A stretch of DNA of 64,000 bases from the NCBI RefSeq assembly GCF_000732725.1, contig NZ_JPNB01000002.1, positions 868,001 through 932,000 of the forward strand, read 5' to 3'. This stretch comes from Kineothrix alysoides (lineage in GTDB: Bacteria; Bacillota; Clostridia; Lachnospirales; Lachnospiraceae). A program made the translations under genes and the position numbers. The notes beneath the pieces were generated by a model. That model did no database searches. It was given only the letters and a program-made list of their open reading frames with translations, and was not told the DNA's origin. This document shows, in pieces, positions 25,140 through 31,550 of the stretch; the first letter of the stretch is position 1; each line of letters starts with the position of its first letter.

Positions 25140-26957
25140 CTATCTCTTCCTTTCTTTTTGTCTGTTCGGTATGATCAGAATAAATTCGCTGCCTTCACTA
25201 AGCTTACTGTTAACAATAATCTCCGCTTCTTCCTGATAATATATCCTAAGCCTGTGAATGACATTACTGATTCCTATGCGCTTGCTGTTAAGAGGTCCTT
25301 TTTCCTCTATTTCTTGCTTAATCTCCGCAATCACCTCGTTATCCATACCGCAGCCATTGTCCTTAATACGAATTTCGAGTTTTTTATCCGGGCGCACAAA
25401 AGCTTTAACATAGATCATTCCGCCTTCCTTTACCTCTTCAAAAGCGTGCAATATCGTATTTTCAATGATCGGCTGCAAAAGCATTTTATAAATGGGAAAT
25501 TCCATTGCTTCCTCTGTAATATCATAGCTGCAGTCAAAGGAATTATGAAAACGGTCTCTTTGGAGAAATATATACTTTTTCAACCAGCTGATCTCCGCCT
25601 CCAGAACCACTTCCATATCGATGTTGGAAACGCTGTATCTCAAAAGGCTCCCTAAGGTTCCCAGCATATCGCTGATTTCCTCCTCATCATGTTCGATGGC
25701 TCTCCAGTTAATGGAATCTAACGTATTAAAAAGAAAATGGGGATTAATCTGAGCTTCGAGGGCCTTTATCTCCGCATGCTTTTGGCTGATTGCCGCCGCC
25801 TTAATTTCCTCATTTCTCTGACGGAGCATTTCTACAAGGGAATTAACCCTTTCCGTCATCTTATTGAACTGTCTGACAATTACATACAGCTCATCTTTTT
25901 CATTCACATCCACATTAATCTTATCTTCGCCTATTCCTTCATAATCATGGATACCCTGTGCTATCTTCTGGATAGTTCCTATATATTTTCTGGATGTAAA
26001 AAACACGATCAGAAAGAAGAAACAGGTAACCGTTATCATGAGAATAAAGACCACGCTTACCAGATGATAAATATCTCTTCTGTATACGGCAGTATCAATA
26101 ATGTTTACAATTGTCCAATCGGTTCCCTCTATCTTTTTTCTGTTTTCCGATATTCTTTTGATATTGCCGAATTCATCGTCCAGGTAAGCGTTATAATTCT
26201 TATTTAAGTAGGCATTGGGAACCCCTGCTATGATCCTGTCCTCATCATTTAATATTACCGTGGTAATTCCGCTTTCCTCTTTCCCGTTTCTTTGATTCTC
26301 GTCACCTTCATCAAACAAAAGTACATCATTATCCAGCGCCATAACCAATACACCTTTTTGCTCTTTTGTCTTGAGATGCTTTACCGGATATCCCATCATT
26401 ATAACATAATCATCTCTTCCTTCCGTATTGCTTAAATTAACGGAGGCTATAAATGATAGTTTCTGCTCTTTATTGATTTTGTCGTAAATTTCTTCTCTTT
26501 GCTCCGGATCCGACCAAATGCTCTCATTCATGCTGCCATACCATTTCGAATAAGTCACGTACTGTCCGTTATCTGCTATGAAAGCGGCACTTCGGATGCT
26601 TTGGTAGGTGTAAACGCTCCTTCGAAGCAGGGTCTCCATGGCTGCTCCATCTACTAAAAGAGTCTCTTCATCTCCTTTATTAATGCTGTCAGCCAGCTTT
26701 ATGCATTCGTTGTTGATGAGGAGTTCATACATCACACCCTTCAAGGCATCCATTCTTTCCTGAACTACGACCCCATGCTGTCCTGTATTCTGCTCCACAA
26801 GGCTGTAGGCGCCTTTTAAAATACTGTTGTAGTATATGATGCTTGCCGAAAAGGTTATGATGATGATGGGGAGCACTGCCATAAGCAGATATACGATGAT
26901 AACCTTCCTTTGTATGCTAGATTTCCTTCCAAAAAAACCTTCTATGTATTCTTTCAT
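25140..26957 (-). CDS. Sensor histidine kinase (YesM type)
   Basis: 605 residues: membrane helix at about 18-40, an extracytoplasmic Cache-like sensor of about 250 residues, a second helix near 298-322, a HAMP-like linker (VNEKDELYVIVRQFNKMTERV), the phospho-acceptor histidine in EAQINPHFLFNTLDS, and an ATPase domain with LLQPIIENTILHAF and DNGCGM. YesM kinases sense extracellular sugars or the loaded binding protein. It abuts the regulator gene without a gap. Confidence 0.93.
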   Translation of the reverse strand: MKEYIEGFFGRKSSIQRKVIIVYLLMAVLPIIIITFSASIIYYNSILKGAYSLVEQNTGQHGVVVQERMDALKGVMYELLINNECIKLADSINKGDEETLLVDGAAMETLLRRSVYTYQSIRSAAFIADNGQYVTYSKWYGSMNESIWSDPEQREEIYDKINKEQKLSFIASVNLSNTEGRDDYVIMMGYPVKHLKTKEQKGVLVMALDNDVLLFDEGDENQRNGKEESGITTVILNDEDRIIAGVPNAYLNKNYNAYLDDEFGNIKRISENRKKIEGTDWTIVNIIDTAVYRRDIYHLVSVVFILMITVTCFFFLIVFFTSRKYIGTIQKIAQGIHDYEGIGEDKINVDVNEKDELYVIVRQFNKMTERVNSLVEMLRQRNEEIKAAAISQKHAEIKALEAQINPHFLFNTLDSINWRAIEHDEEEISDMLGTLGSLLRYSVSNIDMEVVLEAEISWLKKYIFLQRDRFHNSFDCSYDITEEAMEFPIYKMLLQPIIENTILHAFEEVKEGGMIYVKAFVRPDKKLEIRIKDNGCGMDNEVIAEIKQEIEEKGPLNSKRIGISNVIHRLRIYYQEEAEIIVNSKLSEGSEFILIIPNRQKERKR

Positions 26958-27096
26958 GCTGCTGTGTTTACCTCGAATTTTGCAATTTTTAGCGGTTGTT
27001 TGTCAATGATGTTATTATACACTAAATTATTACCTTTTGTGATATTTGTAAATTCAAAAAGTCTTATTCGCAACTGGAATGTTGTGGAAGGAAATC

Positions 27097-27243
27097 TTAT
27101 CCCCATATTCCAAACTCCGGTTTCCAAACCGCTTTAGCAGGACTACCTGAGTCAGGTAATACTTCCTGCGCTATCTGCCTCTGTAAAAAATCAGCCTCCA
27201 AAACATACTCTTCGTATGCTCCGGAGGCATATTGGGTAGACAA
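27097..27243 (-). pseudogene. Possible gene remnant (about 48 codons)
   Basis: An open minus-strand frame, closed upstream by a stop at about 27257, reads QYASGAYEEYVLEAD and ends SPAKAVWKPEFGIWG. Its codon choice looks more protein-like than the AT-rich surroundings, but there is no ATG or ribosome site and no family is recognised. It may be the tail of a lost gene at an insertion boundary, or chance within a structured RNA. Confidence 0.25.
27118..27228. ncRNA. Cluster of three inverted repeats, candidate structured RNA
   Basis: Stems: CGGTTT/AAACCG (27118-27131); GCAGG/CCTGC enclosing ACCTGA/TCAGGT (27137-27169); GCCTCC/GGAGGC enclosing CATAC/GTATG (27194-27228). A T run follows the last stem on the minus strand. 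No known RNA family is recognised. Confidence 0.3.
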
Positions 27244-27555
27244 TATTGTACCACTTTGCTAAATTAGTTTATAATATTTATTACTATATTGCTTTTAAAA
27301 ACAAAGAAGCAGTGTACATATTCCTACGTTTACTTCCTTTTTTGTTGTATTTTTTTATTATTTTTGCATTTATCTTACTACTATATTCTCCCAAAAATCT
27401 AATTCTAAACATATATAGAAAGTTTGGCCCCTTATAAAGGGCACTCCAAATATGGATAACACGAAGGACAATATCTTAAGATATATCCCACATAAAATGT
27501 GTGTGTCGAATCTTCCTTGCAAAAATTACGATCATTCGCATTCTTGTTCAATGTA

Positions 27556-28383
27556 TTATAACAATATTTTTTTTTGAGCTCTCAATTCGTTTTCTGTAAA
27601 ATTAGTATTTTTTATGGCATTATCTAGTGCAGACTCATCCCAAATATCTCCATACTCGATATATTTGTTTCCGTTTACAATTCCATACATTTTTCCAATA
27701 GATGAAACAAAAAAGTATGTTTTTTCGCGCTGTGAAACAGGTGAATATTCAACGGTTTTTTGTGATTCTTTACTTAATAGAGGTAAAAGTTTGTTGATTT
27801 CTTTATTGTCAAAACGTGTGGGTGGAACATTTACTTCAGGAAAGAACCAGTATTCATACAACTGCCATTGTGCTATATTTTGAAATCTAATAAGTTTGGC
27901 TATTTCTATGAGCTGGTGATAATTATGTTTATGAACTATAGTATTTATTCTAACTTTTACATTAAGCTTGCTAAGTTCCCCGATTTTTTGTAAGACTAAT
28001 TCATAATGCCCCTGCCAATTTCTAAACTTATCATGTACTACCCCAATACCATCTAATGGTAAGGCAATTATGTCAATATATTTGTCAATTGCTGAATATG
28101 CTTCATATGATAAATGTGAAGCATTACTATCAACATGAATTGCACAGCCTTTTTGGCTTATGTATTTGAGAAGCTCAGTAAATCCCTCGTTGCAAAAAGG
28201 CTCTCCGCCTCCAATTGTTATCACATCGGGTTGGAAGGTTAATATTGCATCGACAACTTTTTTCCATATTACAATATCGCCATTATTTGCATCGACAAAA
28301 GGTATATAGCAAAAAGGGCAAGTGGAATTACAGGATCCCCTAAAATTAAACGATATCCTGCTGATTTTGTGACAAGTAAACAT
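27556..28383 (-). CDS. Radical SAM enzyme, viperin-like layout
   Basis: 275 residues. CNSTCPFC gives the CxxxCxxC cluster motif (C18, C22, C25), GGGEP at 58-62 is the SAM-binding motif, and DSNASHLS and PLDGIGVVHDKFR follow in the usual barrel positions. The second half (VRINTIVHKHN, then AQWQLYEYWFFPE, then FFVSSIGKMYGIVNG) resembles the order of motifs in viperin, which makes chain-terminating ddhCTP-type nucleotides; overall identity looks low and I could not map the nucleotide-binding residues. No SPASM cysteines. The ATG at 28383 has a perfect AGGAGG six bases upstream, inside the preceding Nudix gene, so the two are coupled. Another radical SAM function is possible. Confidence 0.8.
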   Translation of the reverse strand: MFTCHKISRISFNFRGSCNSTCPFCYIPFVDANNGDIVIWKKVVDAILTFQPDVITIGGGEPFCNEGFTELLKYISQKGCAIHVDSNASHLSYEAYSAIDKYIDIIALPLDGIGVVHDKFRNWQGHYELVLQKIGELSKLNVKVRINTIVHKHNYHQLIEIAKLIRFQNIAQWQLYEYWFFPEVNVPPTRFDNKEINKLLPLLSKESQKTVEYSPVSQREKTYFFVSSIGKMYGIVNGNKYIEYGDIWDESALDNAIKNTNFTENELRAQKKILL

Positions 28384-29971
28384 CAATAGCCTCCTGCATA
28401 TACGGCATCAATGTATAATTTTGGAGTTGGGAAGGGTGCATCCAATTATAGTCACTATGCTCTTTTGAATTCAATACTACGTCCAAATTATTTGTCTTTG
28501 CCATAAAAACAATTTGTGTTGTTTGTCTAAAAGGTAATTGATCATTATTTGAGTATACTGATAAAACTCGCCTTACTTCTATCTCTAATTGGGTTTCCTC
28601 TCTCACTTCTCTAAGCAAGGCTTCTTCAATTGTCTCCCCACTTTCAATACCTCCTCCTGGGAAATCCCACAGTTCGGGCTGATAAAGATTGTCTTTTGAG
28701 CGTTTCAACACGAGAATAGTCCCTGATGCCTGAATGATTGCATGCACTCCTACATATCGACGCGGTTGGTGAGTCTCTCTAGCATTCAACAACTCCAGAA
28801 GCCTATTTCGATGTGCTTCTTCATTTTCCTTCCATGAATCATATGCAGTAGAAAAATTCCAAAGCATATCAAAATTAGCGATAGCTTTTTCATAAAATGC
28901 AGTATTAGTGGAAACAGCAATCTCAAATGTTGACATATTCTTTGCGTAACGTGTGTCTTGCATAAAGTTAGAATATGGTTCGTAGTAACACTTTGTATCT
29001 GTTAAAAGCACAGACGCAGTTATTTCAAAGTCTATAAACCTCACAAGTAAATCCGGGTATTTTAAGACAAGTTGTTCGTAACTTGATAACGCATCTTGCA
29101 ATTTTATCGAATACCATTTTGATTTAATATAGGCAGAAATGATATCTTCAGCTGACATTGTCCCTGCAATCAATGATGTGTAGTTTTTATTATTTTCATC
29201 TTCGCTAAATGCAGTGAGAACAGCGTAATACGACCAAGGATTGACTAACAAGACTTGAATTGTTGTACCTTGCTGTCTAACTTTCCTTGTTAATATATCC
29301 CTAAACCGCCCACCAATACTACCTATAAAAGAACTTCCACTACGAGCTAACAATTTAATAGAATTGCTACTTTCGAGTGCTTCTCTTTTATCCAATTGCC
29401 TTTCTTCTGGGTTTGCCGAAGTAAAATAGTTTTCTAATCCAAGAGCCTGAAAATGATTCGATGTGCAACTATTGTGAGATAAAGAGAGGTTTTTAAGGCA
29501 ATGTATGAAGATTTTTGCTAACTGTTGCTTTAGCACAGAGTGAAAACACGAAATATCAAATGAGATTATAGTTAATTGCCTACTTTCAAGTGAAGAAAGT
29601 AACTTTACAGACTGCTGCATTTCTGAATCATTTATCGCCTCTATGTTTGTATACTTCCTTAATGTACGATATTTTTGATACGTAGTACTCAAACACAAAA
29701 GCAAAAATGGTTTTTCGCTCAGCAAAGCAGCTTCCAATTCATCGTCCCAAGTTATGCGACCAATCTCTTCCATAATAACAAAAACACAAATATCTGCATG
29801 TTGAACTGAATCAGTTGAATTTTTTATCCAAGAAGATTTTGTTGAGTTCCAATATAAGATGGTTCCAGATTGATACCACATAGGTTCACCAGCAAAGCCT
29901 TCCACAACATCATTGAAAGGTATTTCAATAGCGCTTACATCAGATGCTCCACAAAGCATTATTTTTAGCAT
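28346..29971 (-). CDS. Multidomain protein: TIR/deoxyribosyltransferase-like N-terminus, PLD-like middle, C-terminal Nudix hydrolase
   Basis: 541 residues. The first about 165 look like a Rossmann-type sensor or nucleosidase: CGASDVSAIE, then ADICVFVIMEEIG and WDDELEAALLSEKPFLLLC, the pattern of TIR, deoxyribosyltransferase or SLOG-type domains. The middle (SIGGRFRDILTRKVRQQG, IQVLLVNPWSYYAV, CYYEPYSNF, FDMLWNFS) resembles PLD-like / DUF5919 regions seen in regulators. The last about 135 are a Nudix hydrolase with GGIESGETIEEALL REVREET (split), where the usual G after EEx is Q. Nudix enzymes cleave nucleoside diphosphate-linked compounds. AAAGGAG precedes ATG 29971. It overlaps the radical SAM gene by 38 bases. 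N-terminal and middle assignments are by pattern only. Confidence 0.72.
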   Translation of the reverse strand: MLKIMLCGASDVSAIEIPFNDVVEGFAGEPMWYQSGTILYWNSTKSSWIKNSTDSVQHADICVFVIMEEIGRITWDDELEAALLSEKPFLLLCLSTTYQKYRTLRKYTNIEAINDSEMQQSVKLLSSLESRQLTIISFDISCFHSVLKQQLAKIFIHCLKNLSLSHNSCTSNHFQALGLENYFTSANPEERQLDKREALESSNSIKLLARSGSSFIGSIGGRFRDILTRKVRQQGTTIQVLLVNPWSYYAVLTAFSEDENNKNYTSLIAGTMSAEDIISAYIKSKWYSIKLQDALSSYEQLVLKYPDLLVRFIDFEITASVLLTDTKCYYEPYSNFMQDTRYAKNMSTFEIAVSTNTAFYEKAIANFDMLWNFSTAYDSWKENEEAHRNRLLELLNARETHQPRRYVGVHAIIQASGTILVLKRSKDNLYQPELWDFPGGGIESGETIEEALLREVREETQLEIEVRRVLSVYSNNDQLPFRQTTQIVFMAKTNNLDVVLNSKEHSDYNWMHPSQLQNYTLMPYMQEAIDVYLSQNQQDIV

Positions 29972-30944
29972 GACTAAATCTCCTTTAATTTAACAATATT
30001 CATTATGTAGAAAGTTACCAACAATTGCATAAATGATAACAGTTATTCTATCCAAGGAGCAATATGAAGCCATATTCATTGTAATATCAATTCTTTAAAA
30101 TATGGCAAATATCTTGCTTTCATCATGTGAACAAATTCGTCGGTTCAGAATGTATAATATATTCTTATTAGATGTAGCACAAATATATAGATTATTATTT
30201 AGCAGGTATTTCAACAATTTTTGTCAGGAAATGCAATCCCTTCAAAATATTCTTCGTTTTTCAACAGCCACATATAATTTCAATCTCCGACAACATTTTT
30301 GGTCAAACTTTTTAGTTATCTACAATCTTATCAACTAGTCTTCGCATTATAGCCATAATCAGAACATAGAGTAGCTTCCCATTATTGCTATAATATCTAT
30401 CATAGATTACATTTTTACAACCTCATTCTATTAAAACAATTATGCAATCCACTATTACTTAATTCATTTTATTGTATTCAATCACCTCGTTGTCAAATAG
30501 GCTCTGCAACTGTACTTTCTCGAAACGCTATGTGCAATACAGAAACTAACTCCTTTTTTGCACTATTAAGAATTGCTTGATTATAATCGTTAACTCATCT
30601 TTTGATGTTGATTAGGCAGATATTACAGTGCTGCAACTTTGTCATTGTTATTAAAAGCTACTGAAACTTTCATTAAACATAGTAGTCGCCCGACAAAATT
30701 ACTCAAACAGATATCCGTTTTTTAGCTGGGGGGTTTCTTCGGATGCGCTATCACATATGGATAACGTTATATGGAGTTCTGATAAAAAACTAGAAAACTT
30801 TTCATTATGAAATTCCCCTTTTATATTTGTAATATAATATCATATTTTTACAAATTTTACTATATTTAAACAGTTAAATATAATCTTTTTGCGTATAATT
30901 CTTAACACTACCATTTTAGCCAGTGGAACGCCATTGCAGCACAC
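29972..30944. other. Long AT-rich spacer upstream of the Nudix/radical SAM pair
   Basis: Nearly 1 kb without a gene I can support; the longest frame (30102-30338, plus) has no ribosome site and random-looking composition. The Nudix gene promoter must lie near 29990-30070; a small palindrome ATAACTGTTAT (about 30036-30046, either strand) could be an operator. An isolated G run and short inverted repeat (ATCCG/CGGAT) occur near 30707-30745. Confidence 0.5.
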
Positions 30945-31550
30945 TTATTTTTTATCCATAACCTTACAATAAATTACCGCCGCCACCGTGCTTAAGCAAG
31001 TAGCCACAAGCGCCGGCGCAATTACTGCGGTGGGGTTTGCACTTCCATATTGGCTTCTGTATACAATCATGTTGACCGGTATCAATTGCAGGGAAGAAAT
31101 ATTCAATATGAGAAAGGTACACATTTCTTTGCTGGCCGTCCGTATTTTTTTATCTCCGGTATATTCCGGGTTCCCCCTCTCTCTTTCCAGCTGCGCTAAT
31201 GCTTCCATAGCCTTGAGCCCTGCCGGAGTGCAGGCCCAGCCAAGCCCTAATATATTTGCAATAATATTGGTGGATATATATTCCCTCGCCGCATGTTCCT
31301 TAGGTATGCGCGGAAACATAAATGACATGAACGGCTGAATACCATCGGTCATTTTCCGAATCAGCCCGGAGGTTTGAGCAATCTGCATCAGACCGACCCA
31401 CAAGGACATAACGCCCATCATCGTAATACATAACGACACCGCCTCGCCTGCGGAGTTTAAGGCTGCGTTGCTCACAGCCTTTATATTTCCTGTAAGCGCT
31501 CCGTAAATGACCCCTATAATAATCATAATCGCCCAAATATAATTTAACAT
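30945..31550 (-). CDS. spmA: Spore maturation protein SpmA
   Basis: About 201 residues from ATG 31550 (GGTGAT upstream), the normal length of SpmA. Membrane protein of the nucleoside-recognition (Gate) family: LWVGLMQIAQTSGLI, FMFPRIPKEHAAREYISTN, NILGLGWACTPAGLKAME and TFLILNISSLQLIPVNM are SpmA hallmarks. It acts with SpmB in spore core dehydration. In most Firmicutes spmB follows directly; here the next gene downstream is unrelated and spmB lies 26 kb on. Confidence 0.9.
   Translation of the reverse strand: MLNYIWAIMIIIGVIYGALTGNIKAVSNAALNSAGEAVSLCITMMGVMSLWVGLMQIAQTSGLIRKMTDGIQPFMSFMFPRIPKEHAAREYISTNIIANILGLGWACTPAGLKAMEALAQLERERGNPEYTGDKKIRTASKEMCTFLILNISSLQLIPVNMIVYRSQYGSANPTAVIAPALVATCLSTVAAVIYCKVMDKK

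Follow-up and report, generated by a model that had tools for sequence, protein, structure and literature searches.

What is the function of two overlapping genes that stand by themselves in an AT-rich insert of the Kineothrix alysoides genome? The pair, which couples a radical S-adenosylmethionine (SAM) protein with a partner ending in a Nudix hydrolase domain, lies on the minus strand at 27556-29971 of the stretch analyzed here, hereafter the window (64,000 nucleotides, positions 868,001 to 932,000 of contig NZ_JPNB01000002.1, our C2, one of the three contigs of the 4.68-Mb host genome). Judging from sequence comparisons, the explanation that we tentatively prefer is that the pair would be a rare, horizontally acquired, viperin-like nucleotide-modifying cassette of two genes, probably devoted to defence. 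If so, it might represent a nucleotide-based system of defence that has not been described before.

The pair has an operon-like layout and both genes are intact. The upstream gene (28346-29971, minus strand) encodes the partner protein of 541 amino acids (aa) and is preceded by the ribosome-binding site AAAGGAGA, and the downstream gene (27556-28383, minus strand) encodes the radical SAM protein of 275 aa, starting with an ATG at 28383. The genes overlap by 38 bases (28346-28383, minus strand), and the radical SAM gene has its ribosome-binding site, AGGAGG (28390-28395, minus strand), within the partner gene, ending 6 bases before the ATG. Coordinates and a Shine-Dalgarno check agree here with an initial annotation of this DNA, which had also reported gene-poor flanks of about 600 and 970 bases, measured now as 598 (26958-27555) and 973 (29972-30944), and an AT-rich patch. 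The guanine-cytosine (GC) content of 26961-30945 is indeed 33.4%, against 43.3% for the whole window, and a value as low was found in 1 of 301 sliding windows of the same size, counting also those placed over the insert. The two genes of the pair are the only non-overlapping open reading frames (ORFs) of at least 80 aa inside the insert.

The downstream product is a member of the radical SAM superfamily, since it matches Pfam Radical_SAM (PF04055) with an E value of 1.9e-16 and 61.1 bits against a cut-off of 29.5. As first described, its translation contains a CxxxCxxC motif at residues 18-25 and a GGGEP motif at 58-62, and it lacks the SPASM cysteines, because no cysteine is present beyond residue 80. 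The PADLOC pVip model matches it over nearly the full length (residues 10-265, 73 bits, 5.1e-21), and the best NCBIfam models are NirJ1 (73.6 bits, residues 10-176), TIGR04053 (68.6 bits) and the prokaryotic viperin NF038283 (66.9 bits, residues 10-267), all of them with cut-offs far above these scores (650, 395 and 180 bits, respectively). A viperin taken as positive control reached 270.5 bits with NCBIfam and 262 bits with PADLOC. The pVip model PDLC02903 gives as well 91-103 bits on proteins of 8/249 genomes of the same phylum, and the five of these eight proteins that were placed in our tree (L047, L048, L049, L052 and L053) all fell outside the viperin clade. We have therefore not accepted the PADLOC score as grounds for viperin membership, as PDLC02903 also responds to non-viperin proteins of the phylum. 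Annotations of pVip that rest on PDLC02903 alone may be wrong.

Two phylogenetic trees were built to place the protein. The first one contained 39 proteins: the three members of the family defined by the window protein and its relatives from Ensifer sp. MPMI2T and Sinorhizobium meliloti (hereafter the window family), eight plasmid proteins annotated as viperin, two from Escherichia coli plasmids, one from Azospirillum, one from a viral contig, seven named reference enzymes, and 17 radical SAM proteins from the phylum or genus of the host. The second one, with 34 rows, left out HxsC, BlsE, the viral and Azospirillum proteins and one same-phylum row, which had long branches or a doubtful place. 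In both trees the eight viperins form a clade (100/99) that excludes the window protein, while the window family is recovered as a clade of its own (97/94 with 39 rows, 95/87 with 34 rows). Viperins and window family belong in the larger tree to a group (87/86) that also contains the E. coli proteins and HxsC, and in the smaller tree they make up, together with the E. coli proteins, a clade supported at 95/98, with the window family and the E. coli proteins grouped inside it at 92/82. The kinship with viperins that had been proposed for this protein is thus borne out as proximity in the trees, and it does not extend to inclusion in the viperin clade or to a score above the 180-bit cut-off. A 300-aa radical SAM protein of a viral contig (L038), considered as a further family member, was placed outside the window family and discarded.

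The protein had also been said to follow the motif order of viperins, and this does not hold at the residue level. When the window family was compared with the eight viperins and the 17 same-phylum rows, six positions were found to be fixed in 8/8 viperins, i.e., the N and the H of an N-x-H motif before the first cluster cysteine, a K/R before the GGEP strand, the S after the D of SxDS, and the K/R and K around a tryptophan (R/K-W-K). The window protein differs at all six (S, N, V, G, Q and Q); the Ensifer protein has I, N, E, G, I and S, and the first two positions are missing from the S. meliloti piece. Other viperin residues are kept: K/R-x-N is present at both of its places in 3/3 members of the window family (0/17 and 3/17 of the same-phylum rows), and W173 in 3/3 members, 7/8 viperins and 1/17 same-phylum rows. 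We take the lysines and the arginine among the six positions to be those holding the triphosphate in viperins; if this is so, the pocket of the window protein binds something else, or binds it differently. By the score, clade and residue tests made here, the radical SAM protein is close to viperins and yet is not a viperin.

The partner protein ends in a Nudix hydrolase domain (28352-28762, minus strand; residues 404-540), in agreement with the initial annotation, as it matches Pfam PF00293 (E 1.3e-20, 74.2 bits, cut-off 21.1) and carries at residue 440 the Nudix box GGIESGETIEEALLREVREETQ, complete save for a Q at the late G of what we take to be the consensus. Its best PADLOC model is PDC-S07, which gives 87 bits on the Nudix domain alone and 60 and 61 bits on the NudI proteins of the E. 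coli plasmids. The NCBIfam matches of the partner, among those listed (25 of 28), all lie on the Nudix part, and nothing in Pfam or PADLOC matches residues 1-401, for which PHROGs gave only a match at 0.04 (343-408). The rest of the protein comprises an N-terminal domain (about residues 1-165) and a middle domain (about residues 170-400; 28769-29464, minus strand), which had been called TIR/deoxyribosyltransferase-like and PLD-like. The former label is unproven, residues 1-165 having no useful sequence match. The latter finds no support, because the HxK(x)4D motif is absent from the partner and no Pfam family, HKD included, matches residues 1-401 or the Ensifer homologue of the middle domain, a result that would be compatible with an inactive PLD-like fold. 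When solved structures were searched with the middle and N-terminal domains, the matches were a lipoprotein (E 1.1) and some designed barrels, no stretch passing, and an AlphaFold model of the partner from a two-row alignment was too poor for reading the fold (mean predicted local distance difference test 36, predicted template modelling score 0.28). Without a family match, an HxK motif or a usable model, both labels are visual impressions only.

Conservation of the pair outside the host comes from rhizobia. A relative of the radical SAM protein is encoded in Ensifer sp. MPMI2T (match over residues 9-270, E 3e-31). Its gene is directly preceded by one for a protein of 286 aa, with an apparent membrane anchor by reading, that is homologous to the middle domain of the window partner (BLASTP E 2e-7 for the pair). 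The local score between both is 101, against a mean of 32.0 for shuffled sequences (z 13.1), and none of 1000 shuffles reached it; among the controls, five other Ensifer neighbours gave z values from -0.7 to 1.1 and the N-terminal domain of the partner gave -0.7. Plasmid p_3 of S. meliloti (L017, 4351-8729) contains the same two genes, there with an IS66 element interrupting the radical SAM gene. The rhizobial homologue has no counterpart of the N-terminal or Nudix domains, and the three-domain partner was found nowhere else among the sequences searched; the pair is hence conserved elsewhere in its middle domain and radical SAM protein, and not as a whole. Downstream of the Ensifer pair, an HTH-ASCH gene matches PADLOC PDC-M11B (6.3e-31) and a PIN-GNAT gene matches PDC-M11A (7.1e-120), PDC presumably standing for phage defence candidate. 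Similar genes follow in S. meliloti, the second one in two overlapping frames by reading. Candidate defence genes thus accompany the pair in the rhizobial lineage, and none was seen by eye beside the pair of the window itself.

The locus of the pair is variable within the host genus. A match to the flanking histidine kinase gene (25140-26957) at E <= 1e-60 is present in 7 of 15 congeners, in one of them with merely 29% identity, and leaving out this last locus the window was compared with those of six congeners. The insert (26961-30945) is absent from congener G651 (82% DNA identity), where the kinase gene and the gene ending at 30945 are about 140 bases apart, i.e., an empty site. The same two flanking genes are 9.85 kb apart in G653 (90% DNA identity), with no DNA similarity to the pair; the intervening genes encode, according to their translations, an ABC exporter, an iron-type ABC transporter and a LacI-type regulator. 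The second flank was not located in G656, and three further loci were too short to judge the site. The position of the pair in a variable insertion spot fits a horizontal acquisition. No tRNA gene was found in the 64,000-nt window. Downstream of the pair there is a terminator-like hairpin with a T tail (27194-27228, minus strand), the only one in 26900-31000, which is weak evidence alone, as shuffled sequences contained 1.6 on average. At the other end of the insert, the 973 bases of 29972-30944 (GC about 30%) have no ORF of at least 80 aa and may hold the remnants of lost genes.

The pair is rare in all the collections searched. Among 250 genomes of the host's bacterial family, the partner matched 14 other genomes at 15 places, all within residues 388-531, that is, in the Nudix part, and residues 1-401 matched 1/398 genomes of the phylum, the host's own, and no plasmid. 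The whole partner had no match in phages, nor in viral contigs scanned with six short patterns. At 1e-15 the radical SAM protein has matches in 51/398 genomes of the phylum, a count that includes the host; apart from the self-match, none goes beyond residue 217. Its matches in phages are only partial. A three-row profile of the window family found 3/31 relatives, 7/250 genomes of the host's family and 1/151 genomes of the Ensifer family, the full-length matches being the window's and Ensifer's own proteins only. Two of the six non-self matches in the host's family were opened (L091 and L092) and set aside as unrelated, since they lie among several clustered radical SAM genes whose products have C-terminal cysteines as judged by eye. 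A scan of 84,980 species genomes with two short patterns, which misses relatives lacking them, returned 15 stretches and two relatives, Ensifer sp. MPMI2T and a partial archaeal one. Viral contigs queried with the middle-domain alignment or with a viperin gave no lead, and the NCBIfam viperin scan of 199 same-phylum genomes gave no match, nor did it in 14 controls, so that it shows no absence. Matches on Clostridioides difficile and Paenibacillus plasmids consist of two radical SAM genes side by side. No description of this pair was found in the papers searched, most subscription papers being outside the search.

An operon of E. coli plasmids (NZ_CP045714 and NZ_CP027324) is of interest for comparison. 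It encodes a radical SAM protein, then a deoxynucleoside kinase and then a NudI protein, with toxin-antitoxin genes nearby (L056, 4480-6477; L057, 3980-5990). The radical SAM protein has 84.9 bits with the viperin model (cut-off 180). The first of these operons matched 5 of 5,426 E. coli genomes, always on plasmids, and two over at least 80% of its length, one being the record of the query; it is rare and looks like an undescribed candidate system in its own right. A Nudix protein is thus linked twice to this radical SAM branch, fused in the window and separate in the E. coli operon. Plasmid p1 of Azospirillum argentinense (L058, 2274-6005) has a kinase-like ORF overlapping a radical SAM ORF, followed by an ORF that resembles, by eye, a caspase-type peptidase; in its radical SAM ORF the viperin H and K are kept, and the R and K around the W are not.

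How the cassette would work can be proposed from these parts. The radical SAM protein would most likely abstract a hydrogen from a nucleotide or nucleoside, in a pocket unlike that of viperin, yielding a modified product. The middle domain, as the constant partner, may bind a signal or the product and control the system, and the fused Nudix hydrolase may clear or convert the modified nucleotide, as a processing step or for self-protection. The N-terminal domain of the window partner may be a sensor or an effector. The role of the whole would probably be defence against phages or other mobile elements.

Several observations weigh against a viperin-like defence cassette. The neighbours of the pair in the window are, by eye, ordinary transport and signalling genes, and no defence gene was seen by eye to adjoin it. 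The rhizobial context amounts to one lineage, because the Ensifer and S. meliloti proteins share 93% identity in the radical SAM protein and 98% in the middle-domain protein. The NirJ1 score is no lower than that of viperin (73.6 vs 66.9 bits), and with the family profile SkfB (56.8 bits) and BlsE (48.1 bits) outscore the solved chains named viperin (37.7 bits); so do unnamed radical SAM chains, e.g., 9dfu at 52.1 bits, with viperin motifs seen by eye in the 9dfu alignment. At N13, G112 and R121 the window family departs from viperins and agrees with 14/17, 10/17 and 16/17 of the same-phylum rows, and the presumed viperin anchors for the triphosphate are largely absent from it. In the 39-row tree the E. 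coli proteins have HxsC as their neighbour (85/52), and support for the wider clade is weak. A grouping of viperins and window family that leaves out the E. coli proteins was not rejected by an approximately unbiased test (p 0.166), so the E. coli proteins are only a tentative sister of the window family, and since the window row has an end branch of 2.6 to 3.1 changes per site in both trees, its position is a supported lead and not a proof.

Other explanations have to be weighed against the same evidence. A metabolic or antibiotic enzyme that modifies a nucleoside or sugar in the manner of BlsE, with the Nudix protein as its house-cleaning partner and no role in defence, would account for the best solved match of the single sequence, which is cytosylglucuronate decarboxylase (5.2e-9), and Nudix enzymes often clear by-products. 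We consider it unlikely, as the insert has no further non-overlapping ORF of at least 80 aa, BlsE groups with other rows in the 39-row tree (on a very long branch across a weak split), the insertion site is variable, and the rhizobial pair is beside candidate defence genes. The possibility of a peptide-modifying enzyme, i.e., a maturase of ribosomally synthesized and post-translationally modified peptides, is raised by SkfB, which among solved structures gives the best match with the family profile (1.8e-14). This match stops at profile position 157 of 278, the SPASM cysteines are lacking, and a small ORF (20-99 aa) preceded by a GAGG-type ribosome-binding site, as a candidate precursor peptide, was not found on the coding strand of the insert, all of which makes a maturase very improbable.

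The pair might also be a true, divergent viperin (SAND) producing a 3'-deoxy-3',4'-didehydro (ddh)-nucleotide triphosphate, with the Nudix domain for immunity or recycling, and in its favour count the nearly full-length PADLOC pVip and NCBIfam viperin matches, the conserved K/R-x-N and W173, and the closeness to viperins in the trees. Such an identity is quite improbable in view of the 66.9 bits obtained against a cut-off of 180 and a control of 270.5, the response of PDLC02903 to 8/249 same-phylum genomes, the place outside the 100/99 clade and the six differing positions. The extreme rarity, the S. meliloti copy split by IS66 and the AT-rich surroundings devoid of further ORFs of at least 80 aa could equally be those of a decaying insert with no present function. 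Decay is hardly probable, as neither window gene is disrupted, the ribosome-binding sites are good and the catalytic motifs of both enzymes are preserved.

To our knowledge, no radical SAM enzymes other than viperins are widely accepted as modifiers of nucleotides in immunity. A bolder version of the defence cassette reading, which on balance we regard as doubtful, would make of these proteins a second immune family of nucleotide-modifying radical SAM enzymes beside viperins, devoid of the presumed triphosphate anchors, controlled by a new ligand-binding partner domain and with repeated recruitment of Nudix hydrolases for processing or limiting the modified nucleotide. If true, a family with a changed pocket and repeated Nudix links would hint at novel nucleotide analogues with antiviral activity and at the way in which cells avoid being harmed by them. 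Apart from that, the case of PDLC02903 indicates that good scores with a viperin model from a defence annotation library can also be reached by radical SAM proteins of other kinds.

Among the known systems, viperins (pVip, SAND) resemble the window protein in their similar length, the lack of SPASM, the neighbouring branch and the conserved K/R-x-N and W, whereas the window protein lies outside their clade and below the cut-off, has six fixed positions changed and has a different partner. Of the eight plasmid viperin loci opened, three have a deoxynucleoside kinase as the upstream gene. The E. coli operon shares with the window a radical SAM protein that neighbours the window family in the 34-row tree (92/82) and its link to Nudix, but there the Nudix protein is a separate gene product of the NudI family, a kinase gene stands where the window pair has the middle domain, and the radical SAM protein keeps an R before the GGEP strand and an R at the lysine of RWK, which the window protein does not. 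The Ensifer and S. meliloti loci share the same radical SAM family, a homologous middle domain and the same gene order, and they differ in having no counterpart of the N-terminal and Nudix domains and in adjoining the PDC-M11 candidate genes.

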